A DNA stretch of 64,000 nt. It comes from a bacterium HR29. Lineage in GTDB: Bacteria > Chloroflexota > Dehalococcoidia > Tepidiformales > Tepidiformaceae. The notes under the pieces are model-generated. The model saw only the letters and a list, made by a program, of their open reading frames with translations, did not search any database and was not told the origin of the DNA. This document shows, one piece after another, positions 44,380 to 55,363 of this stretch; the stretch's first letter is position 1, and each line of letters begins with the position of its first letter. The stretch is from positions 62,001-126,000 of the forward strand of contig BEIF01000002.1 in assembly GCA_002898215.1 (NCBI GenBank). The letters are read 5' to 3'. Position numbers and translations under genes: made by a program.

Positions 44380-45327
44380 ATGCCTCCTTCGCCGACTCTC
44401 GAATCGCGCATCCGCGGGGGCCTGTACGGGGTGGCCGTCGGCGACGCCCTCGGCGCCACGCTCGAATTCGAGACCGCGGAGAGCATCCGCGCCAGGTGGG
44501 GGGAGCTGCGAGAGATCGTTGGCGGCGGCTGGCTCGACCTTCCACCCGGTGCCTGGACCGACGACACGGAGATGACGCTGGCCCTGGCGGAGGGCATCCT
44601 CGACGACCCCGCAGACCCGCTTCCGCACGTGGGACGGCGCTTCCTCGCTTGGATGGAGAGCGGCCCGCCCGACATCGGGAACACCGTGCGCGCGGTCCTT
44701 CGCCTGATGGCACAGGGGGAGTTCTCGCCGCGGGAATGGCACCGCGCCGCAAAGCGGGTCCACCGCGAGCTCCACGGTATGAGCGCGGGCAACGGCGCAC
44801 TCATGCGGACGCTGCCCGTCGGCCTCGCCTACCGGGACCCCGAGGAGGTCATGGCGAAGGCGGAACTGCTCGCCCGCATGACCCACTGGGACCCGAGAGC
44901 GGCTCACTCCTGCATGCTCGCGTCGCTGGTGGCCTTTGCCATGGCTTGGCGCGACGCGCCGCCCGGGGAAGCGCTCGCCTGGGCGGCCGACGTGCTCTCC
45001 TCGCGGGTTGGCGAAGTGGCCGTCGAAGAGCTCGCCGGTCTGGCGCTGCGCCGCTCCTGGGGCGAGCTCACTCCGAGCGGATTCACGGTGGAGAGCCTCG
45101 AATGCGCCCTGTGGGGCCTTCTCGAGGCGCCGGACTTCGAAGAGGCCGTGGTGCGGGTGGCGAACCTCGGCGGCGACGCCGACACGATCGCGGCCATCAC
45201 CGGGGGGCTTGCCGGGGTACGTTGGGGCTTCGAGGCCATCCCGAAGCGTTGGGTGCACGCCCTCTCGCCAGGTCAGCGGGGCCGGCTGGACCGGGTCGCC
45301 GAGGGGCTTCTGAGGCTCGTCGGGTGA
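44380..45327 (+). CDS. ADP-ribosylglycohydrolase family protein (DraG/ARH-like)
   Basis: The 315-residue protein has both binuclear-Mg signatures: WTDDTEMTLALAEG near residue 60 and GGDADTIAAITGGLAGVRWG near the end, with the GVAVGDALGATLEF opening. Such enzymes remove ADP-ribose from proteins, or act on ADP-ribosylated nucleic acids or small molecules. No ADP-ribosyltransferase is visible in the window, so the target is not known. Confidence 0.92.
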   Translation: MPPSPTLESRIRGGLYGVAVGDALGATLEFETAESIRARWGELREIVGGGWLDLPPGAWTDDTEMTLALAEGILDDPADPLPHVGRRFLAWMESGPPDIGNTVRAVLRLMAQGEFSPREWHRAAKRVHRELHGMSAGNGALMRTLPVGLAYRDPEEVMAKAELLARMTHWDPRAAHSCMLASLVAFAMAWRDAPPGEALAWAADVLSSRVGEVAVEELAGLALRRSWGELTPSGFTVESLECALWGLLEAPDFEEAVVRVANLGGDADTIAAITGGLAGVRWGFEAIPKRWVHALSPGQRGRLDRVAEGLLRLVG

Positions 45328-45390
45328 GGTTCCCATCGGCCCTGGGCTCCTTCGCCCTCCCTTCGGGGGACCGTGGCGTGCTCATCCAGA

Positions 45391-45423
45391 CCGATTGGCC
45401 GGGAGGACCTCCCGGCCAATCGG
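45391..45423. other. Perfect 33-base palindrome (16-base arms, one-base centre)
   Basis: Arm CCGATTGGCCGGGAGG, centre A, then its exact reverse complement. GGTTT follows on the plus strand, too short a T-run for a confident terminator. It lies between the glycohydrolase and methyltransferase genes. Confidence 0.7.
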
Positions 45424-45599
45424 GGTTTCAGCGGCTGGCCCGCTCCTGCGCCGAGAGGGAGGGGACATGGGGCGAGGATGCGGAGAGAGGAACGGCCGGG
45501 GGCGGGAGGGTGGTAGGTTGCCCGCGAGAGGAGGAGGCCGGATGATGCCCGGGGAGGGGGCAGCCGCGGTGGCCCCCTGCGACGGTGAGGGGGTGAGCC

Positions 45600-46406
45600 A
45601 TGGCCGACGTACGCCCGGAATCGAGTGTTCGCACGCACTACCGCGTCTCCGGCGTTGCGGCGCGAGCGCTTGCCGCGCTGGCGGCGCAAGGGATCGAAGA
45701 GCCCGCCCCGTCCGACCTCGCTCCTGTCGACCAGCTCCACACCGGCGGAATCCGAGCCACCCGCGAGCTGGCCTCGCTGCTGGAGCTCCGGCCGGGGGAC
45801 CGTGTGCTCGATCTCGGGTGCGGGTTGGGCGGACCCGCGCGCTGTATAGCCTTCGAATTCGGGTGCACGGTCGTGGCCGTCGACCTCGTGCGCGACCTCT
45901 TACGCGAGGGAAGGGTGTTGACGAGCGCTTGCGGCTTGCTCGACAGGATTCAATTCGTCGCCGGCACCGCCCTGCGCTTACCGTTCCGGGACGAGTCGTT
46001 CGACGCCGTCTGCACCCAGCACGTGGTGATGAACATCGCTGACCGGCTGAATTTCTGGCGCGAGGCGGCGCGGGTTCTCCGTCGGGGAGGGCGGTTCGGG
46101 TCGTTCGACATCGTGCGTGGCCCCAACCCAGCGCCGCTCACCTTCCCGCTCCCCTGGGCCAGCCGGGCCGAAATCAGCTTCGTGCTCACCCCGGAGGAAA
46201 CCCGGGTCGGCATGGAGGAGGCGGGTTTCGAGATCGAAAGGTGGGAGCAGCCGGAGCCTCCGCCCGTTACGGTCCCGGCTGCTCGCGGGCTGGACCAGCG
46301 CATGGCGCTCGGCGAGGAGATCGGCGAGCGTATCGCCAACGTCGGCGCCGCGTATGCCGACGGCCGGCTGGCGCTCCTCCGGGTTCTCGCTCGCCGGCAG
46401 CGGTAG
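45600..46406 (+). CDS. SAM-dependent methyltransferase (class I)
   Basis: The 268-residue protein shows the SAM loop VLDLGCGLGGPARCIAFEFG, an acidic strand-2 end (VVAVDLV) and DESFDAVCTQHVVMNI, as in the ubiquinone/sterol/tocopherol-type group. An N-terminal extension of about 60 residues precedes the core. A GC hairpin (GGGGGC/GCCCCC, about 45557-45580) lies close to the ribosome site GAGGGGGTGA. Substrate unknown. Confidence 0.87.
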   Translation: MADVRPESSVRTHYRVSGVAARALAALAAQGIEEPAPSDLAPVDQLHTGGIRATRELASLLELRPGDRVLDLGCGLGGPARCIAFEFGCTVVAVDLVRDLLREGRVLTSACGLLDRIQFVAGTALRLPFRDESFDAVCTQHVVMNIADRLNFWREAARVLRRGGRFGSFDIVRGPNPAPLTFPLPWASRAEISFVLTPEETRVGMEEAGFEIERWEQPEPPPVTVPAARGLDQRMALGEEIGERIANVGAAYADGRLALLRVLARRQR

Positions 46407-46542
46407 CGGGAGTCGGCACGCCGTCCACGCTCGAGGAACGTGGCAGAAGCAGGCTCGTACCGGCGGCGAGGTGACAGGGCGCCGGCCCACGGGGCCCGAC
46501 GAATCCCCGACCAAGGCGGACGGCGGAGCTCGAGGCGAGCGG

Positions 46543-47316
46543 CTACTCGCCCGCGTCGAGGTAGACGAGCTCCCGGTTCCCGATGATGATCACGTCCGCG
46601 TCCTGGAGGGGAACCGGATTCTGCACCCGCCGCCGTGTTCCTTCGCGGCGGAGGAACGTTCCGTTCTGGCTGCCGAGGTCGTACAGCACGAAGCTGCCGT
46701 TTTCGTACCGGATCTTGGCGTGGCTCCGGCTCACCTCCGGGTCGTCGATGACGATGGTCGCCTCTCGTGCCCGTCCGATGGTCACTTCCTCCAGCAATCG
46801 GAAGGGCCGGCCGTCGCTCCCCCGGTCCACCAGGAACGCGAGGCGTCCGGCCGGACGTCCGGTCGTTCCGGCCACGACAGTTCGGTCGCCCTGCGCCGAC
46901 CCGCCGGCTGGCGCGGCTGCGACCCGCGTCTCCACACCCGCCGGTTCGACGCGTGTGGGGGCGGCGCCGGCTGCAGCGCCGGCGAAGGCGGGCCCGCCGA
47001 CCGGCGCGCCGACTGCGGGGGCAACCGCTTCGCGCGTGCCGTAGGCGTAGACCGTTGCGGCCATCCCGATGGCCCCGAGCCAGGCGAGCACTGCCAGGGC
47101 GACGAAGCCGCCCGAATTCGTCTCGGGGAAGTCGAGCGGTGCGGCGATCGCCGCGGGGAGCGCCAGCAGCGCGCACACCGCCGCCCCAAGCTGATACGCG
47201 CGTGCCCGGGGCCCGGCCGCGTTCACGAGGAGCCAGCCGGCGGCGACGGCGACCGCGGCGAACTGCACGACGAAAAGGACGCTCCGGATCTCTGCCGAAA
47301 GTCCGCCGAAGCCCAT
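46543..47316 (-). CDS. Transmembrane protein with C-terminal FHA domain
   Basis: The 257-residue protein has about three N-terminal membrane spans (about 8-100), a Pro/Ala/Gly linker and a C-terminal FHA domain (about 170-255): TIGRAREATIVIDDPEVSRSHAKIRYENG and DLGSQNGTFL carry the conserved Gly-Arg, Ser-x-x-His and Asn-Gly-Thr residues. FHA domains bind phosphothreonine peptides. It is the last gene of the kinase cassette, 10 bases after the next FHA gene. The ATG at 47316 follows GGGGCAGAG. Confidence 0.9.
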   Translation of the reverse strand: MGFGGLSAEIRSVLFVVQFAAVAVAAGWLLVNAAGPRARAYQLGAAVCALLALPAAIAAPLDFPETNSGGFVALAVLAWLGAIGMAATVYAYGTREAVAPAVGAPVGGPAFAGAAAGAAPTRVEPAGVETRVAAAPAGGSAQGDRTVVAGTTGRPAGRLAFLVDRGSDGRPFRLLEEVTIGRAREATIVIDDPEVSRSHAKIRYENGSFVLYDLGSQNGTFLRREGTRRRVQNPVPLQDADVIIIGNRELVYLDAGE

Positions 47317-47326
47317 GCTCTGCCCC

Positions 47327-47656
47327 CTATGCCTTCTTGAAGAGGAGGATCGTGTCGCCGATCTGTACGCGATCGTTGTGGCGTAGCACGTGCTGGTGCA
47401 TCTGCCGGCCGTTGACGCGGGTCCCGTTCGTCGACCCGAGGTCGATGAGGGTGAACTCCCCGCTCTCGTGTCGGATGCGGAGATGCTCGCCCGACACGTT
47501 CGGGTCATCGATGCGGATGTCGTTCGTGCCGCTCCGGCCCACGGTCGTCGTGTCCGGTTTCAGTTGGAAGATGCTCCCCGCTTGCGCCCCTTTGGTGACG
47601 ATGAGGTAGGCGAAGGTCGGGGGGCTCGTGCGCATCTGGACCGTTTCCGAACTCAC
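47327..47656 (-). CDS. Stand-alone FHA-domain protein
   Basis: The 109-residue protein is essentially one FHA domain: VGRSGTNDIRIDDPNVSGEHLRIRHESG and DLGSTNGTRVNG include the phosphothreonine-binding Arg, Ser and Asn. It lies three bases downstream of the PP2C gene and ten upstream of the membrane FHA gene, in a single transcript with the kinase. The role is probably as a readout or inhibitor of kinase signalling, like GarA/OdhI, although it has no N-terminal Thr-rich phosphorylation motif like theirs. Confidence 0.92.
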   Translation of the reverse strand: MSSETVQMRTSPPTFAYLIVTKGAQAGSIFQLKPDTTTVGRSGTNDIRIDDPNVSGEHLRIRHESGEFTLIDLGSTNGTRVNGRQMHQHVLRHNDRVQIGDTILLFKKA

Positions 47657-47659
47657 CTC

Positions 47660-48592
47660 TCACCCTCCGAAGGGAAGCTGCTCGAAAGGAAGCCACCCCG
47701 CGGCTGCAGCCCCGCCCGCGGCGCCTCCCAGTGCGACGAGCGCCAGCAGCATCACCCAGGCGACGAGCCGCCAGCGGGAGCGACGCCTCCCCGGCTCGCC
47801 GATGGCCAGCCGCTTCGTGTCGTGCTGGGTCTCCAGCGGGTTCGGTACCCGATAGATGACCACCGACACGTTGTCGGGCGCTCCTCGCTCGCACGCCATC
47901 GAAATGAGCTCCCGGGCGGCCGAGTCGGCGGCGTAGAGGGCCGCTACCGAGGCGAACTCCTCGTCGCGGACGACGCGGTAAAGCCCGTCGGAGCAGAGGA
48001 GGACGACGTCGCCCGGCGCGAGGGCGATGGGGCCGCCGGAATCGGCGGCCACCTGCGGCTCGAAGCCGATGCTGCGCGTGATGACGTTCCCGAAGGGCGC
48101 GTCGGCCGCTTCTTCGGTGGAGATGACCCCGGCCCGCACTTGCTCGGCCACCAGCGAATGATCGGAGGAGAGCTGCCGAGCGGAATTCGGGCCGATGAGG
48201 TAAACCCGCGAGTCGCCGACGTTTGCCCACCAGAGCGACTCGCCGATGATGAGCGCGGCCGCGAGGGTGGTCGCGGGGTGCGCGCCCGGGTGGAGGCTCT
48301 CGGCCTCCTGGAAGAGCGTCTCGTTCACCCGTTCGAACGCGGCTGCCAGCCCTGAGCGAGGGTCCGAACCGGCGGCGAGGGCCGCCGCGACGTATTCCCG
48401 AAGGAGCTCGACACACCGCTGGCTGGCCCAATCGCCGTGGCCCTGGCCCCCTACGCCGTCGGCCACGGCGAGGAGGATGCCGAGTTCGCGCCCCACCGGA
48501 AGCACATCGGCGAGCACCGCGTCTTCGTTCCGGGGGCGGACCGCCCCTCGGTCGGTGCGCGCGCTCAGGATGTGCGACTTGGGGCGCGACAT
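47660..48592 (-). CDS. PP2C-type protein phosphatase with C-terminal membrane anchor
   Basis: The 310-residue protein has PPM motifs in order: RPRNED near residue 20, AVADGVGGQGHG near 43, ANVGDSRVYL near 123, LLCSDGLYRVV near 200 and GAPDNVSVVIYR near 240, the metal-binding Asp residues of the binuclear site. One membrane span lies at about 275-297. It should reverse Ser/Thr phosphorylation made by the neighbouring kinase. Confidence 0.94.
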   Translation of the reverse strand: MSRPKSHILSARTDRGAVRPRNEDAVLADVLPVGRELGILLAVADGVGGQGHGDWASQRCVELLREYVAAALAAGSDPRSGLAAAFERVNETLFQEAESLHPGAHPATTLAAALIIGESLWWANVGDSRVYLIGPNSARQLSSDHSLVAEQVRAGVISTEEAADAPFGNVITRSIGFEPQVAADSGGPIALAPGDVVLLCSDGLYRVVRDEEFASVAALYAADSAARELISMACERGAPDNVSVVIYRVPNPLETQHDTKRLAIGEPGRRRSRWRLVAWVMLLALVALGGAAGGAAAAGWLPFEQLPFGG

Positions 48593-48602
48593 CGGCTCCT
48601 CC

Positions 48603-49691
48603 TTAGCGCAGCGGCAGCCACTGCCGCGCTCGAGCCTCGGCGATCGTTTGGGAGATGGAGCCGTACAGGCCGGCGGCCGGCTGCTGGGTGCTTGGGTTCA
48701 GGATACCGATGGTGTTGACACCCACGACCCGTCCGCACTGGTCGACGAGCGGGCCGCCGGAATTTCCGGGGTTGATCTCGGCGTTGTGCTGCAGGAACTC
48801 CGCTCCTTCGAAGATGCGGACGGTGCTGAAGTTGCCAAAGGTGAAGGTCGGGCTGCCTTGGACAATTGGGTTGGCGAGGGCGAGGGGGTATCCCGCAGCG
48901 ATAACCCGGTCACCCGGCTGGAGCTTGCTCGCTCTCCCCCAGGTGATGGGCTTCAGGTTGGGGATGCCCTCGGCCTTCAAGAGGGCCAAATCGACGATGG
49001 GGTCGACGTTCACCACTTTGGCCGGAAGCTGACGCTCGCTGTCGGGAAACACCACGGCGAAGTCAGGCATGAGTTCGCCGCGTTCGTCATCGAAGACGAC
49101 GTGCCGGTTCGTCATGATATAGCCGTCGCGCGTCAGCACGAATCCAGTACCGTTGCCTACCGGATTCCCCTGCTCGTCGAGGATCACGATGAGCGCCACC
49201 GAGGGCCTGATCCGTTCCACGGCTGCCCGGTCGCTGCAGGATTCGCCCTTGCCGGCGGTGAGCCCGATGCCGAAGAGGAGAACGGCCATCACGACGCCGC
49301 CCAGCGAGGCGATGAAGGGGACACGGAGCGCTCCCGTCCAGAATCCGCCAGCGGGCCGGCGCCCGACCGCAGCCGCGAGCGGGGCGACGCCCGATACGAC
49401 GATGCGCGTGTTGCCGAGGTCGATCTGGTCGCCCTCCCGAAGCACGTGCTCCCCGCTGATGCGCTGGCGGTCGCGACCTCGCACGAGCCAGGTTCCATTC
49501 GCCGAGCCCAGGTCGCGGATGACCCACACACCATCGGGCCGCTGCGTGATGGTCGCGTGCTGGCGCGAGACCGATTCGTCGCCCGTCAGCACCACCTGAC
49601 AGACCGCGGGGTCGCGGCCGAGCGTCGTCGCGCCGCGAAGCTCGACGACGTTCCCCGCATTCGGACCGCTGGCGATCGTGATGCGCGGCAT
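48603..49691 (-). CDS. FHA - transmembrane - trypsin-like (HtrA-type) serine protease fusion
   Basis: Residues 1-100 are an FHA domain (LGRDPAV, SVSRQHATI, DLGSANGTWL), followed by a membrane span (about 123-146) and a chymotrypsin-fold protease with the triad His197 (TNRHVV), Asp234 (PIVDLALL) and Ser311 (NPGNSGGPL). There is no PDZ domain. In this topology the FHA faces the cytoplasm and the protease the outside, so phosphothreonine binding inside could control proteolysis outside. It lies 10 bases before the PP2C gene and 27 after the kinase. Confidence 0.92.
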   Translation of the reverse strand: MPRITIASGPNAGNVVELRGATTLGRDPAVCQVVLTGDESVSRQHATITQRPDGVWVIRDLGSANGTWLVRGRDRQRISGEHVLREGDQIDLGNTRIVVSGVAPLAAAVGRRPAGGFWTGALRVPFIASLGGVVMAVLLFGIGLTAGKGESCSDRAAVERIRPSVALIVILDEQGNPVGNGTGFVLTRDGYIMTNRHVVFDDERGELMPDFAVVFPDSERQLPAKVVNVDPIVDLALLKAEGIPNLKPITWGRASKLQPGDRVIAAGYPLALANPIVQGSPTFTFGNFSTVRIFEGAEFLQHNAEINPGNSGGPLVDQCGRVVGVNTIGILNPSTQQPAAGLYGSISQTIAEARARQWLPLR

Positions 49692-49718
49692 GCAGGCTCC
49701 TCCTGACCGTTCACTCCC

Positions 49719-51428
49719 TCACTCGCGTTCCCAGCCGGGGACGAAGCCCGGCGGACGGGGCTCTTCCAGGTCGACGACGCACCCCTGTTCGGCGTATGTC
49801 TCCGTCCACGATGCCCAGAGGCGGCTGTCGTCCACGTATTCGAGCCAGAGGAAGGCCTCGCCCTTACCGAAGTTGTTCTGAACGTCCCAAAGGAAGGTGA
49901 TGGTGGGCCACGTCACGTACCCCGACGCGACGTGGCCGGTGTCGTCGAAGAGGTCCACCGGTTCCCCGTCCTCGAGGAGGCCGTTCCCGTTCGCGCCCTC
50001 TCCTTCCTGGAGGCTGATTCGGACCTGGAACGGGGTGCCCTCTCCAGCGATCCCGCAGGTGTCGAGGGTGACGCGGAGGTCGAGTGTGCGCGTCCCCGCT
50101 TCGATCCGCCCAGGTGGAGCCGAGCCCGACCCGGGCTGCGGGCGGGAGCCTCCTCCCGGCACCGGCGTTCCGGTGGGCGTGGGCCCAGCCGTCGGTGAGC
50201 GGGCAGGCGTCTTCGCCGGCTGGGGGCTCTCCTCGTCCGGCTCTTCGGTCGGCGATCCCTTCGTTCCCCCGGGGTTGGCTCCGCCTTGCCCCGGCCCCGT
50301 CGCGGGACCCATGGCCGCCGGCACTGCGTCATTGCCGTCGCCACCCGAGAGGAGCAGGAGGGCGAGGACGACGCCGGCGACGAGCGCGGCGACGGCTCCG
50401 AAGAGCGCCAGGAGCCGATAGCGCGGTGGAATGGCCTCCCACGGCCTCGGTCCCGCGGGGGCTGCAGCGAGCGTTCCCGAGGCGACCATCGTTGCTCCCG
50501 GCCCGCCGGCGGCGCTGGCTCCGCTCGCCGTCAGTAGCGGCAGGACCCGGGTTTCGGCCAAGGTCCGCGTCGCGGTCGCGGTCCAGGCGTCTCCGGAGGC
50601 CGCGCTCCCGAGCGAGGCGCGAGCGGACTCGATGGCGGCGAGGAGTTCCCCCGGCGTTTGGAAGCGCTCGTTCGGGTCCTTCGCCATGAGCCGCTCGACG
50701 ATGGCGCGCACCGCCTCCGGGACGTGTTCCAACGCCTCCATGGGGGGTGGCGCCTCGAGGTGGAGGCGCATCATCGTGTTGAGGTCGTCAGATTCGAAGG
50801 GCGGGCGGCCCGCCAGCATGTGGAAGAGCGTGCACCCGAGGGAGTAGAGGTCGGAACGGGGGTCGACCGTGCCCCGGAACTGCTCGGGTGCGGCGTAGGT
50901 GAGCGTACCGACGAACATGCCCGGCGCCGTGACCGCGCCGCCGTAGGTGAGGCGGGCGATGCCGAAGTCCATCACCTTCACGGCGTTGTCGCGGGTGACC
51001 ATGATGTTGTCGGGCTTGATGTCGCGGTGAACGATGCCGCGAGCCGCGGCCTCGTCGAGCGCCAGCGCCACCTGGGAGCAGATGGCGAGCGCCTCGGCGG
51101 GCGAGAGAGCCCCCTGTTGGAGGATCTCCGAGAGCTTCACGCCCTCGACGAACTCGCTCGCGATGTAGTAGCGGCCGTTGGCGGAGCCGAACTCGTAGAT
51201 GCGCACGATGTAGGGAGAAAGGAGGAGCGAGGCGACGTGCGCCTCGCGTCGGAAACGCTCGATCATCCCCGGGTCGTGCTGGAGGTGCTCGTGGATGACC
51301 TTGACCGCAACCGTGGCGCCTGTGCGCTCGTCGATAGCTCGGTAGACGGTGCCCATGCCGCCCGCCCCGATGCGCTCCACGAGGCGGTAATGCCCCAGGT
51401 GTTCACCGGTACGAGCTGGCCGGAACAT
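49719..51428 (-). CDS. Transmembrane Ser/Thr protein kinase (PknB-like), no PASTA domains
   Basis: The 569-residue protein has a Hanks-type kinase domain (about 13-280): GAGGMG nucleotide loop, VAVKVI Lys, HRDIKPDN catalytic loop, DFG and the APE motif (AAPEQF). A Thr-rich juxtamembrane segment (about 285-335) is followed by one span (about 341-363), a Pro/Ser/Thr linker and an external beta-rich domain (about 430-569) that lacks PASTA repeats. It phosphorylates proteins on Ser/Thr, probably in response to an external signal. A minus-strand TATATC box (51468-51473) lies upstream. Confidence 0.95.
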   Translation of the reverse strand: MFRPARTGEHLGHYRLVERIGAGGMGTVYRAIDERTGATVAVKVIHEHLQHDPGMIERFRREAHVASLLLSPYIVRIYEFGSANGRYYIASEFVEGVKLSEILQQGALSPAEALAICSQVALALDEAAARGIVHRDIKPDNIMVTRDNAVKVMDFGIARLTYGGAVTAPGMFVGTLTYAAPEQFRGTVDPRSDLYSLGCTLFHMLAGRPPFESDDLNTMMRLHLEAPPPMEALEHVPEAVRAIVERLMAKDPNERFQTPGELLAAIESARASLGSAASGDAWTATATRTLAETRVLPLLTASGASAAGGPGATMVASGTLAAAPAGPRPWEAIPPRYRLLALFGAVAALVAGVVLALLLLSGGDGNDAVPAAMGPATGPGQGGANPGGTKGSPTEEPDEESPQPAKTPARSPTAGPTPTGTPVPGGGSRPQPGSGSAPPGRIEAGTRTLDLRVTLDTCGIAGEGTPFQVRISLQEGEGANGNGLLEDGEPVDLFDDTGHVASGYVTWPTITFLWDVQNNFGKGEAFLWLEYVDDSRLWASWTETYAEQGCVVDLEEPRPPGFVPGWERE

Positions 51429-51467
51429 CCCCCCTGTGCCCTCAGCCGCAGACTCGCTCGCGTGGAT

Positions 51468-51473
51468 GATATA
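51468..51473 (-). promoter_or_regulatory. -10 box TATATC for the kinase cassette
   Basis: It lies 39 bases before the kinase start and probably drives all five minus-strand genes down to 46543, since gaps between them are 3-27 bases. Confidence 0.5.
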
Positions 51474-51509
51474 CGAGGGGCGCCTATTGAAGAAAAGAGG
51501 GTTGCGGCC

Positions 51510-52466
51510 TCATCCCGTGCGCAGGCGCGGGTCGAGGAGGTCCCTGAGGGCGTCGCCGAGCATGTTGAAGCCGAAGACAGCGGCGGAGAGGGCGACACCT
51601 GGGAAAACGGCGAGCCACCAACCCACCGTCATGTGGATGCGGGCTTCTCGGCTGAGCATGCCGCCCCAGCTCGGAACGTCAGGGGGTACGCCCAAGCCCA
51701 AAAAGCTCAAGGTCGCTTCGGCGAGGATGGCGTTGCCCAGTCCCAAGGTGGCCAGGGTGATGATCGGTGCCATCACGTTCGGGAGGATGTGGCGAAGGAT
51801 CATGCGCGTGTGCCCGACGCCGATCGCACGCGCCGCCTCCACGTAGGTGGCCTGGGATACGGAGAGCACCGCGCCGCGGATGATGCGCGACTGGCCAACG
51901 CCGAACAGGATCCCGAGCGAGATGATGATGATGAATACCGGCGTGCTGAACACGCCTTCGCGCTGGAGGAAGGGCGCCTGCCAATCGCGGAACACCGCCA
52001 CCACGCCCAGGAGGAAGACGAGCGCTGGGAAGGCGATGAAGGCGTCGACCAGGCGCTGAACGAGGATGTCGAACCAGCCCCCGAAGTACCCGCTGAGGAG
52101 CCCGAGCGCCACCGAGATGAACGTCGCCACGACGACGGCCGCGAAGCCGACGAACATGGCGATGCGCGCTCCCCACACGATGCGGCTGAAGACGTCGCGG
52201 CCGAGGTTATCGGTGCCGAAGAAGTGAGCGGTGCTCGGTGCCTCGAGTCGTCCCCCGGCGCCGAGTTGGTTCGGTTCGAAGGGCGCGGTCCAGGAGGCGG
52301 TGACGGCCAGGATGGCGATGAGAAGGACGAGCGCTCCCCCGAACAGGCCCAGCGGCTTCTCGCGAACCAGACGCCGGAGGACGTCCACGTAGAACGGAAG
52401 CTGCCGGCGGAGCTCGAACTGCGGTGCTTGCGCTTCGGCGATGGTTGCGCGTTCTTGCTGAGCCAC
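51510..52466 (-). CDS. Peptide/nickel-type ABC transporter permease, DppC-like
   Basis: The 318-residue protein has a cytoplasmic N-terminus, six membrane spans and the EAA-loop ATPase-contact motif (about EAARAIGVGHTRMILRHILPN), with the DppC family ending FGFNMLGDALRDLLDPRL. It pairs with the DppB-like permease upstream, nine bases apart. No ATP-binding subunit follows: the next gene downstream is the kinase cassette. Confidence 0.93.
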   Translation of the reverse strand: MAQQERATIAEAQAPQFELRRQLPFYVDVLRRLVREKPLGLFGGALVLLIAILAVTASWTAPFEPNQLGAGGRLEAPSTAHFFGTDNLGRDVFSRIVWGARIAMFVGFAAVVVATFISVALGLLSGYFGGWFDILVQRLVDAFIAFPALVFLLGVVAVFRDWQAPFLQREGVFSTPVFIIIISLGILFGVGQSRIIRGAVLSVSQATYVEAARAIGVGHTRMILRHILPNVMAPIITLATLGLGNAILAEATLSFLGLGVPPDVPSWGGMLSREARIHMTVGWWLAVFPGVALSAAVFGFNMLGDALRDLLDPRLRTG

Positions 52467-52475
52467 GGTCCCTTC

Positions 52476-53426
52476 CTACCCGTAACGAATCCGCGGGTCG
52501 AGCCACCCGTAGGTGAGGTCGACCACGATGTTGACGAGCACGACGATCACGGCGAGAACGAGGACGACGCCCTGCACCGACGGGTAGTCGCGCTGGAAGA
52601 TGGCGCCGATGAAGTATCGGCCCACGCCGGGGATGTTGAAGATGCTCTCGAGGATGATCGTCCCTCCCAGCGCGGTCCCCACCTGCAGGCCGACGATGGT
52701 GACGACGGGGATGAGGGCGTTCTTCAGGGCATGTCGGGTGATGATGGCCCGTTCACGAAGGCCCTTCGCCCACGCGGTGCGGATGTAATCCTGGCGAAGC
52801 ACTTCGAGCATCATCGTGCGGGTCATCCGCATCACGGAGCCCGCGAGCCCGACGCCGAGGAGGAGGGCCGGCCAGAAGTAGTAGTAGAGATGGTCGATCG
52901 GGCCGGCCGACCACGGCTTGTAGGTGAGAGGGGGCGACCACCCCCACCAAGTCGAGGGGAAGACGATGAGCAGCAAAGCCGTGAAGAAGTACGGCACCGA
53001 GAGGGCCAGGATGGCGAAGCTGCGGGCGGCGTAGTCGGCCAGCGTGTCTTGCCGGACGGCGGAGAGGATGCCGACCGGCAGAGCGATGATGAGCCCGATG
53101 AGGATGGCCATGAACCCGAACTCCACCGTCACCGGCAAGCGGTCCTGGAGTTCGGACGCCACCGACCTCCCGGTCCAGGGGGAATGGCCGAAGTCGCCGC
53201 GGAGGACCTTCCCCAGGTAGACGGCGAACTGCTGGGGGATGGGCTTGTCGAGGCCGAGCTCCCGCTCGATGCGGGCGCGGTCCTCCTCGGTGGCGTAGGG
53301 GTTCTCCGCCATCATCAGCTCCACCAAGTCGCCCGGGACGAGGCGCAGGAGCATGAAGGTGGCGAACATCACGAGGAGGACGGTGGGGATAGCGAGGAGA
53401 AGGCGGCGGATGACGTATTCGGTCAT
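52476..53426 (-). CDS. Peptide/nickel-type ABC transporter permease, DppB-like
   Basis: The 316-residue protein matches DppB: the N-terminal span ending TFMLLRLVPGD, the VEFGFMAILIGLIIALPVGI region and the EAA loop (DYIRTAWAKGLRERAIITRHALKNAL), ending VVDLTYGWLDPRIRYG. It forms half of the membrane channel. It is downstream of the substrate-binding gene, separated by a strong hairpin (53442-53478). Confidence 0.94.
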   Translation of the reverse strand: MTEYVIRRLLLAIPTVLLVMFATFMLLRLVPGDLVELMMAENPYATEEDRARIERELGLDKPIPQQFAVYLGKVLRGDFGHSPWTGRSVASELQDRLPVTVEFGFMAILIGLIIALPVGILSAVRQDTLADYAARSFAILALSVPYFFTALLLIVFPSTWWGWSPPLTYKPWSAGPIDHLYYYFWPALLLGVGLAGSVMRMTRTMMLEVLRQDYIRTAWAKGLRERAIITRHALKNALIPVVTIVGLQVGTALGGTIILESIFNIPGVGRYFIGAIFQRDYPSVQGVVLVLAVIVVLVNIVVDLTYGWLDPRIRYG

Positions 53427-53441
53427 AGGCGCGGCGTGCCA

Positions 53442-53478
53442 CCGTCGAGGGGCGGGAGAAGGGCCCGCCCCTCGACGG
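53442..53478 (-). terminator. Intra-operon hairpin between substrate-binding protein and permeases
   Basis: Perfect 15-base arms, CCGTCGAGGGGCGGG and its complement, flank a seven-base loop. No T-run follows on the minus strand, so it probably stabilises the upstream mRNA end or allows partial read-through, giving excess binding protein, as is common for importers. Confidence 0.6.
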
Positions 53479-53487
53479 AAGGTTCCC

Positions 53488-55167
53488 TTACAGGTCGAGC
53501 CAGAGCGTTTCGATCCGGCCGTCGTAGAGGTCGGTGTGGTAGAACCACCCCTTCACGGCGGGATCGGTGAACTCGTGCAGGTTGGTGGTGAACATGAACT
53601 TCATGGGGAAGTCGAGCACGATCTTCCGCTGCGCTTCGAGGACGAGCGCGCGCCGCCGCTCCCGGTCAAGCTCCTGGGACTGCTGGTCGATGAGGTCGAA
53701 GATCTCCTCGTTGTAATGCTTGTAGTACGTGGAATTCCTGCCGAAATACGAGGAAAGATTTTCGTCCGGGTCGGGGTTGTTGAGGGGGACGTGGTGCGAG
53801 AACGTGTACTTGTACGAGTAGGTCTGGTTGTAGTAGGCGGCGAGCTCCATCGGTTGCAGCTCCACTTCCACGCCGATCTGCGCCAGCTGCTGCTTCAGGA
53901 TCTCGCCGATCTGGTCGGCTTGGGGGTTCGTTGCCCAGATCATCGGCCCGCGGAAGCTCGTGACGCCCGCGGCTTGCATCAGCTTCTTGGCGTTGGCCAG
54001 GTCGAACTTGTGCTCGGGGAGTTCCTCGGGGAGCGCCCAGTACTCGTAGATCGGGAGGATGGGCCCGAAGGCGCGCACCCCGTCGCCCGCATAGACGAGG
54101 TCGAGCACCTGCTCGGGATTGACCGCCTGCACGACCGCCTGGCGGAAGCGGGGGTCGCTGAACGGAGGCTGGTACGGCTGGTCCTTCGTGGTTGGCGGCA
54201 TGCGCATCTGCCGCCAGAACTGCGAGGGAACCGCCTTGTAGTTCGCGTCCTTCCGCGCGCTGCGCACGCGATCGAGCTGGGGCTGGCTCACGATGACCGC
54301 GTGCACCTGCTTCTGGATGAACATGGTGGCGGCGGTATCGGGGTCGGTGGCGAAGAGCCAGGTGACGCGGTCGACGTAGGGGAGCCCCTGCTTCCAGTAG
54401 TCCGGGTTCCGCTCCGCCTTCATGTGGACGTCTTTCTGCCATTCCTTGAAGATGAACGGCCCCGTCCCGACCGCGTGCTGGGTGAGGTCACCGTACTTCT
54501 CCACCGTCTCCCGGTTGATGATGAGCGTCCAGGGGCTTGCCAGGTAGCTCATCATCGGCGCGTACGGCCGTTTCGTGCGGAATACGACCGTGTACTTGTC
54601 GGGCGTGTCGATGCCATCGAGCTTGCCGAGGAAGAAGTAGGCGTGCTGGAACTTCCCCGGCTCGTTCGTGCTCTGCCGCTCGATCGAGTACTTGACGTCT
54701 TCGGCGGTCAGCTCCCGGCCGTTGGCCGGGTCCACGTTGTGGAACTTCACCCCCTGGTGGATCTTCACCACCCACGTGAGCTGGTCGGGGTTTTCGGGCA
54801 GTGCCGTGGCGAGGTCGGTCACGATCTCCGCGAGGTCCGGTGTGAAGCGGTAGAGACCGTTGTAGACGTTGTTCGTGAGGGCCGTGTTGTAGGGGAACGT
54901 GTCGAAGTGCGGGTCGAGGCTGCGCGGGGAGCCGCCGAGGTGGAAGATGACCTCACCGCCCCGCTTCGGCTGCTCTGTGGGGGCGGCGGTCGGCGACGCG
55001 CCCGGCGTCTGCCCCGCCGGAGGCTGCGTGCCGCCCGGGGCCTCCTCGTCGTCGCCGCAGCCCGCAAGGGCCAACCCGGCGAGACCTGCCCCGGCAACAC
55101 CGCTCCCGTAGAGCAGCCGCCGCCGGCTGATGCGGCGGACAGCGTACCGCTCCCAGTAGTTGGACAT
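53488..55167 (-). CDS. Tat-exported lipoprotein, peptide-type ABC substrate-binding protein (SBP_bac_5)
   Basis: The 559-residue protein begins with SRRRLLYGSG, a twin-arginine signal, ending in LAGC, so it should be exported folded and then lipid-anchored. A Pro/Thr linker and a full SBP_bac_5 domain follow (YNGLYRFTPDLAEIVTDLATALPE; WVVKIHQGVKFHNVDPANGRELTAEDVKYSIER). It delivers peptides, nickel or another solute to the permeases. The ATG at 55167 has a GGGAGGGAGC ribosome site; the longer upstream frame is not needed. Confidence 0.94.
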   Translation of the reverse strand: MSNYWERYAVRRISRRRLLYGSGVAGAGLAGLALAGCGDDEEAPGGTQPPAGQTPGASPTAAPTEQPKRGGEVIFHLGGSPRSLDPHFDTFPYNTALTNNVYNGLYRFTPDLAEIVTDLATALPENPDQLTWVVKIHQGVKFHNVDPANGRELTAEDVKYSIERQSTNEPGKFQHAYFFLGKLDGIDTPDKYTVVFRTKRPYAPMMSYLASPWTLIINRETVEKYGDLTQHAVGTGPFIFKEWQKDVHMKAERNPDYWKQGLPYVDRVTWLFATDPDTAATMFIQKQVHAVIVSQPQLDRVRSARKDANYKAVPSQFWRQMRMPPTTKDQPYQPPFSDPRFRQAVVQAVNPEQVLDLVYAGDGVRAFGPILPIYEYWALPEELPEHKFDLANAKKLMQAAGVTSFRGPMIWATNPQADQIGEILKQQLAQIGVEVELQPMELAAYYNQTYSYKYTFSHHVPLNNPDPDENLSSYFGRNSTYYKHYNEEIFDLIDQQSQELDRERRRALVLEAQRKIVLDFPMKFMFTTNLHEFTDPAVKGWFYHTDLYDGRIETLWLDL

Positions 55168-55363
55168 CCGTGCTCCCTCCCTGAACAGTGTTCGCGCCGG
55201 CCCGGCCGCTGCCGGCGCTGGACGGCAGCCCATTCCTACGGCCCTGCCGAAGGGTTGTCAAGGGGTCGAGCGAACGTTCGATCAAGCATCGCAACCGACG
55301 CCCGATCGTGAATCGTCACACAATCTTCATTTCCCGCGCGGAAGCGCCCCAGCCCCGGCGCCG

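Follow-up and report, generated by a model that had tools for sequence, protein, structure and literature searches.

Can phosphorylation of threonines in the cytoplasm of a bacterium be coupled to proteolysis outside its membrane? The question is raised by five minus-strand genes at positions 46543–51428 of a 64,000-nucleotide stretch of bacterium HR29 DNA, referred to below as the window, in which a transmembrane Ser/Thr kinase gene is followed, in order, by genes for an FHA-TM-HtrA-like protease, a PP2C phosphatase and two more FHA proteins, the first of 109 aa and the second with three membrane spans. A first-pass annotation, made from the DNA letters alone, had proposed this gene content and order, and the open reading frames and Pfam domains bear it out; all domain matches in a Pfam scan of the five proteins were well above the curated cut-offs. 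The features are as follows.

49719–51428, minus strand: transmembrane Ser/Thr protein kinase, 569 aa (Pfam Pkinase, 8.6e-51)
49764–50066, minus strand: putative sensor ectodomain of the kinase (33% identity to a kinase ectodomain, G259:C93)
48603–49691, minus strand: FHA-TM-HtrA-like serine protease, 362 aa (Pfam FHA and Trypsin_2; AlphaFold; Foldseek)
49413–49628, minus strand: FHA domain of the protease, residues 22–93, predicted cytoplasmic (Pfam FHA, 5.9e-18)
49254–49316, minus strand: single TM span of the protease, about residues 126–146 (hydropathy)
48717–49151, minus strand: Trypsin_2 domain of the protease, residues 181–325, with H197, D234 and S311 (Pfam, 6.3e-31)
47660–48592, minus strand: PP2C-type phosphatase, anchored by a C-terminal TM span, 310 aa (Pfam PP2C_2, 1.3e-14)
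47327–47656, minus strand: stand-alone FHA protein, GarA/OdhI-like, 109 aa (Pfam FHA, 2.6e-21)
46543–47316, minus strand: membrane protein with three spans and, at its C-terminus, a cytoplasmic FHA domain, 257 aa (Pfam FHA, 4.6e-20)

The intergenic gaps, for which 3–27 bases on one strand had been claimed, measured 27, 10, 3 and 10 bases in the list of open reading frames, and Shine-Dalgarno-like G-rich stretches precede the starts. For the last gene, 47316 is most likely the start; the longest reading frame, from 47508, would share bases with the FHA gene before it. A sigma-70 scan found no promoter, and the sole minus-strand terminator-like site falls within the last gene, so that the assignment of these genes to one operon rests on the gaps and the common strand.

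Three transport genes (51510–55233), matched by Pfam as a family 5 solute-binding protein (SBP_bac_5) and two BPD_transp_1 permeases, lie upstream on the same strand and end 81 bases before the kinase gene. From this proximity one might suppose that the cassette serves peptide-type transport, the outside protease making peptides, the transporter importing them and the kinase tuning the process; the NCBIfam scores by which a substrate could be assigned to the transporter, however, fall below the cut-offs, and we consider such a role very improbable. Downstream of the cassette is a methyltransferase gene (Pfam) on the opposite strand, and an ADP-ribosylglycohydrolase gene is found nearby at 44380–45327 on the plus strand (Pfam, 1.5e-72). 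A defence function was considered and set aside, the PADLOC matches being to generic kinase and protease domains. Neither the MoxR ATPase nor the vWA protein of ternary conflict systems (PMC7159879) is among the genes annotated at 44380–55233.

The kinase consists of a kinase domain at residues 14–257, one TM span predicted by hydropathy near residue 342 and a C-terminal extracytoplasmic domain at about residues 440–569. As the first-pass annotation had stated, it is a transmembrane kinase without PASTA domains: Pfam gave no PASTA match in the protein, which scores 294.8 bits versus a cut-off of 450 for the PASTA-kinase family (PknB/Stk1). The model of its ectodomain is all-beta, of low confidence (pLDDT 54) and too weak for a fold search, and the one clear relative of the ectodomain is carried by another kinase. 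The host genome (2.34 Mb, 97% complete) contains 5 FHA domains, 3 of them in the cassette and 2 at another locus, on contig C1, whose genes encode a kinase, a penicillin-binding protein and two FHA proteins, one of them of the FhaA_N-FHA type. This latter locus resembles the usual cell-wall kinase set, so that the genome has two distinct kinase loci, of which the window cassette is the second.

Operons that combine kinase, PP2C and FHA genes are classic (PMC2784874; PMC1262709), among them the actinobacterial operon PknA/PknB-FHA-FHA-Ppp-FtsW-FtsI (PMC2784874). The window cassette is like the latter in bringing together a membrane Ser/Thr kinase, a PP2C phosphatase and two FHA proteins, but differs from it in having no PASTA domains; a search of the cassette for penicillin-binding protein or FtsW/RodA genes found none, and it thus does not qualify as a cell-wall kinase operon.

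The protease sets this locus apart. Its residues H197, D234 and S311 are at the positions at which a complete catalytic triad had been reported, and they are invariant across 19 aligned proteases. In the AlphaFold model (mean pLDDT 85) the FHA region is predicted with high confidence (pLDDT 91–97 over residues 1–100), and the linker and span, at about residues 105–150, with low confidence; the linker from the FHA domain to the span is probably flexible. The best Foldseek matches of the protease domain were HtrA1 and DegS. The protein has the trypsin-like fold and His-Asp-Ser triad of the HtrA/DegS type (S1C) but not its C-terminal PDZ domain, for which Pfam gave no match; between Trypsin_2 and the C-terminus there are 37 residues. 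Because no signal peptide precedes the FHA domain, the natural topology would place that domain in the cytoplasm and, beyond the one span predicted to begin near residue 126, the protease domain outside, which is also the arrangement that had been noted earlier.

DegS and MarP are membrane-anchored with their protease domains outside. With these proteases and HtrA1 the window protein shares the chymotrypsin fold and the H-D-S triad; it differs from them in lacking a PDZ domain and in carrying a cytoplasmic FHA domain ahead of the span, and its MarP score is 79 versus a cut-off of 250.

The phosphatase has the PP2C domain and motifs, with a Pfam PP2C_2 score above the cut-off and one predicted span near residue 276 (hydropathy), although it falls below the narrower NCBIfam Stp1 equivalog (191.4 bits versus a cut-off of 230). 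The three-span protein has spans predicted by hydropathy near residues 13, 43 and 71. The sequence motifs associated with phosphothreonine binding by FHA domains (GR, SxxH, NG) are present in all 3 FHA proteins of the cassette.

We compared the cassette with loci from 38 genomes of the same family, among which the genus was represented by this genome alone; widening the FHA search to the order led to the same 38 genomes and added nothing. The kinase, a 110-aa FHA protein and the three-span FHA protein recur in the same order in 2 other genera. In one of these genomes (G107, locus L105) the order is kinase, PP2C, kinase, 110-aa FHA protein, three-span FHA protein (a full-length relative of the window protein), another FHA protein and a vWA protein, and in the other (G299, L120) it is kinase, 110-aa FHA protein and the start of the three-span protein at the contig end. 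The protease fusion is absent from the first cluster and from the available part of the second. The conserved core is thus the kinase, the 110-aa FHA protein and the three-span FHA protein, without the protease.

This conservation bears on whether the main output of the cassette might instead be cytoplasmic, with the small FHA protein controlling a metabolic enzyme in the manner of the GarA/OdhI phosphoswitch, the protease gene having entered the operon late. The 109-aa protein, like GarA and OdhI, is a small cytoplasmic FHA protein, and these are its closest solved structures (best PDB matches, 2.4e-18 and 2.9e-17, respectively). Its relatives, 39–41% identical in the 2 other genera, have been kept beside a kinase, so that this pairing occurs in three genera, as the protease has not, and all of them share an N-terminal threonine in the sequence ETV. 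Yet the window protein scores 80.4 bits, far under the cut-off of 200 for the GarA/OdhI family, and its N-terminal tail, which has this one threonine, is about 12 residues long versus 42 in OdhI (PMC2784874), a length that is probably insufficient for the known intramolecular switch. By analogy, the ETV threonine may be said to recall the GarA/OdhI switch (PMC2784874) without matching it. We regard a cytoplasmic switch as the main output as unlikely. In the 110-aa proteins of G107 and G299 glutamine replaces the histidine of SxxH (VSLEQ and VSEEQ), which makes phosphothreonine binding by them doubtful and counts against the main reading given below; judged from these residues, the small FHA member may not bind phosphothreonine everywhere.

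Does the protease, then, belong with the kinase elsewhere? Four further FHA-TM-HtrA fusions were found in the class and phylum genomes sampled: one with a zinc ribbon and FHA domain (G056, L118), one with two FHA domains (G259, L125) and one each in G394 (L154) and G584 (L155). No kinase or PP2C gene was found beside any of the four in the stretches examined, which in G394 and G584 measured only about 6 kb in all. Searches of 294 class and 400 phylum genomes with a protein query, and of 350 with a profile, found no conserved kinase-protease linkage among the best five or six candidates scored per genome, a depth at which such a linkage could have been missed. When the family was searched separately for FHA and for Trypsin_2, the positions of the matches listed coincided in two places, the window and G259. 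Among the genomes sampled, therefore, the fusion was found inside a kinase operon only in this one, and the expectation that it would be conserved with the kinase in related genomes failed. A tree of protease domains scatters the five fusions; we do not argue from it for several independent origins, as a topology that unites the five passes the AU test (p 0.079). Matches from Rhodococcus and Nocardia plasmids that appeared to reach into the FHA region were also discarded: they are annotated as 338-aa proteases, start after most of that region and adjoin heat-shock genes. In one tree, proteases from Planctomycetes that are anchored in the membrane but have a different N-terminal portion where the FHA domain would be (L031, 7428–8906; L032, 6963–8837) group with the window protease domain (support 98/94), a placement made unsure by long branches.

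More generally, the FHA-bearing partner varies at kinase/PP2C loci of the family. Of 19 family regions fetched around relatives of the PP2C gene, 7 also contain a kinase gene and 12 do not; FHA genes were present in 6 of the 7 versus none of the 12 (one-sided exact p about 3e-4, for genomes that are not independent). The partners at kinase/PP2C loci include FHA-cyclases (G288, G259, G107 and G301) and, in G092, an MMPL transporter that ends in two FHA domains and is encoded directly after kinase and PP2C genes (gaps of 57 and 39 bases). Further FHA effectors are a second MMPL-FHA protein and an FHA-GAF-AAA-HEAT protein in G301 and an FHA protein with an alpha/beta hydrolase in G092. In the class genomes searched, the window's 109-aa protein was matched best (44%) by the G092 transporter, in the latter's final FHA domain. 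Since the FHA partners differ between loci, the window cassette seems to belong to a series of loci that join a kinase/PP2C pair to the FHA effector in use in each lineage, here a protease.

Our main reading, to which we give a probability of about 0.5, is that the cassette is a phosphothreonine signalling unit with an exchangeable FHA-fused effector, in this case an extracytoplasmic protease that is recruited or clustered by phosphothreonine. The kinase ectodomain would sense a cue outside the cell, the kinase would phosphorylate cytoplasmic threonines on itself and on the FHA proteins, and the anchored PP2C would erase these marks. The three FHA proteins would bind marked sites at the membrane and so gather membrane proteins; the FHA domain of the protease, by binding phosphorylated partners, would bring the enzyme into such assemblies, and clustering could raise the proteolysis of putative envelope substrates. 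HtrA proteases generally work as oligomers, which favours recruitment or clustering over a conformational change passed on through one span; direct gating by that route appears mechanically weak, because the linker between FHA domain and span is of low confidence and probably flexible.

The same features could be read to mean that the FHA domain merely positions the protease at membrane kinase sites, the enzyme being constitutive in envelope quality control and not switched. The HtrA-type catalytic domain, whose triad is complete, the flexible linker and the four fusions that have neither kinase nor PP2C adjacent are all consistent with this; but the protease gene lies between the kinase and phosphatase genes, at gaps of 27 and 10 bases, which suggests co-regulation, and we think constitutive activity rather unlikely. 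A more far-reaching reading, which we put forward tentatively and with some doubt, is that cytoplasmic phosphothreonine made by the operon kinase switches the outside protease through the FHA domain and across the single span, and that this is one case of a family-wide plug-in design in which proteases, transporters, cyclases and hydrolases are each coupled by FHA domains to a kinase/PP2C pair. Control of the protease through its FHA domain, if it exists, would let Ser/Thr phosphorylation in the cytoplasm act directly on proteolysis beyond the membrane, in a direction opposite to DegS-type sensing. The range of effectors fused to FHA domains in related genomes, many of which are membrane proteins, suggests that FHA is a general adaptor for kinase control.

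As a possible phosphoacceptor we considered the motif [DE]xT[VIL][VILFM], which occurred near FHA domains 18 times versus 5 expected in the set where it was first noticed. The enrichment was not reproduced in 25 fresh FHA proteins (12 versus 9 expected), and the motif was dropped; for this reason we propose no substrate site beyond the N-terminal threonine that the 110-aa FHA proteins carry in ETV.

The claim that the cassette is not a described module stands in part. We found this precise set of five genes at no other locus, and in the open-licence literature we found no publication on a kinase operon with an FHA-protease fusion; the architecture itself, and kinase, PP2C and FHA clusters, are not new. 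An FHA-FHA-trypsin protein of Bacteroides thetaiotaomicron, NP_811686.1, was listed in 2008 without functional work (PMC2605481), beyond which the same literature yielded nothing on FHA-protease signalling. By listed architecture, the basis of our comparison, it resembles the window protein in having FHA N-terminal to a trypsin-like protease and differs in having two FHA domains versus one. Rv1747 of M. tuberculosis, an FHA-ABC exporter phosphorylated by PknF (cited in PMC6213207), is similar in being a membrane effector whose FHA domains bring it under the action of a kinase, but that effector is a transporter and the one in the window a protease. ABC proteins with 3 FHA domains, similar to Rv1747, occur in the present family. 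Because relatives combine other effectors with the same kind of switchboard, the cassette is a new combination of known parts, not a new kind of system.

Several other FHA loci were noted in the course of this work. A tight cluster of kinase, PP2C and MMPL-two-FHA genes (L098, 7018–12738) possibly encodes a phospho-controlled transporter. FHA-nucleotide cyclases encoded beside PP2C and kinase genes in four genomes (L097, 5849–6838; L099, 9164–10093; L106, 9167–10618; L103, 12014–13210) may link Ser/Thr phosphorylation with cyclic nucleotides. Finally, relatives within the family encode very large proteins, often as tandem pairs, with an N-terminal FHA domain, a span near residue 345 and then 600–3100 residues (L158, 3816–13025 and 359–3706; L160, 2627–9496; L161, 3934–14352; L167, L172 and L173); a C39-like peptidase was present in both of the 2 that were scanned, and Ig-like repeats in 1.
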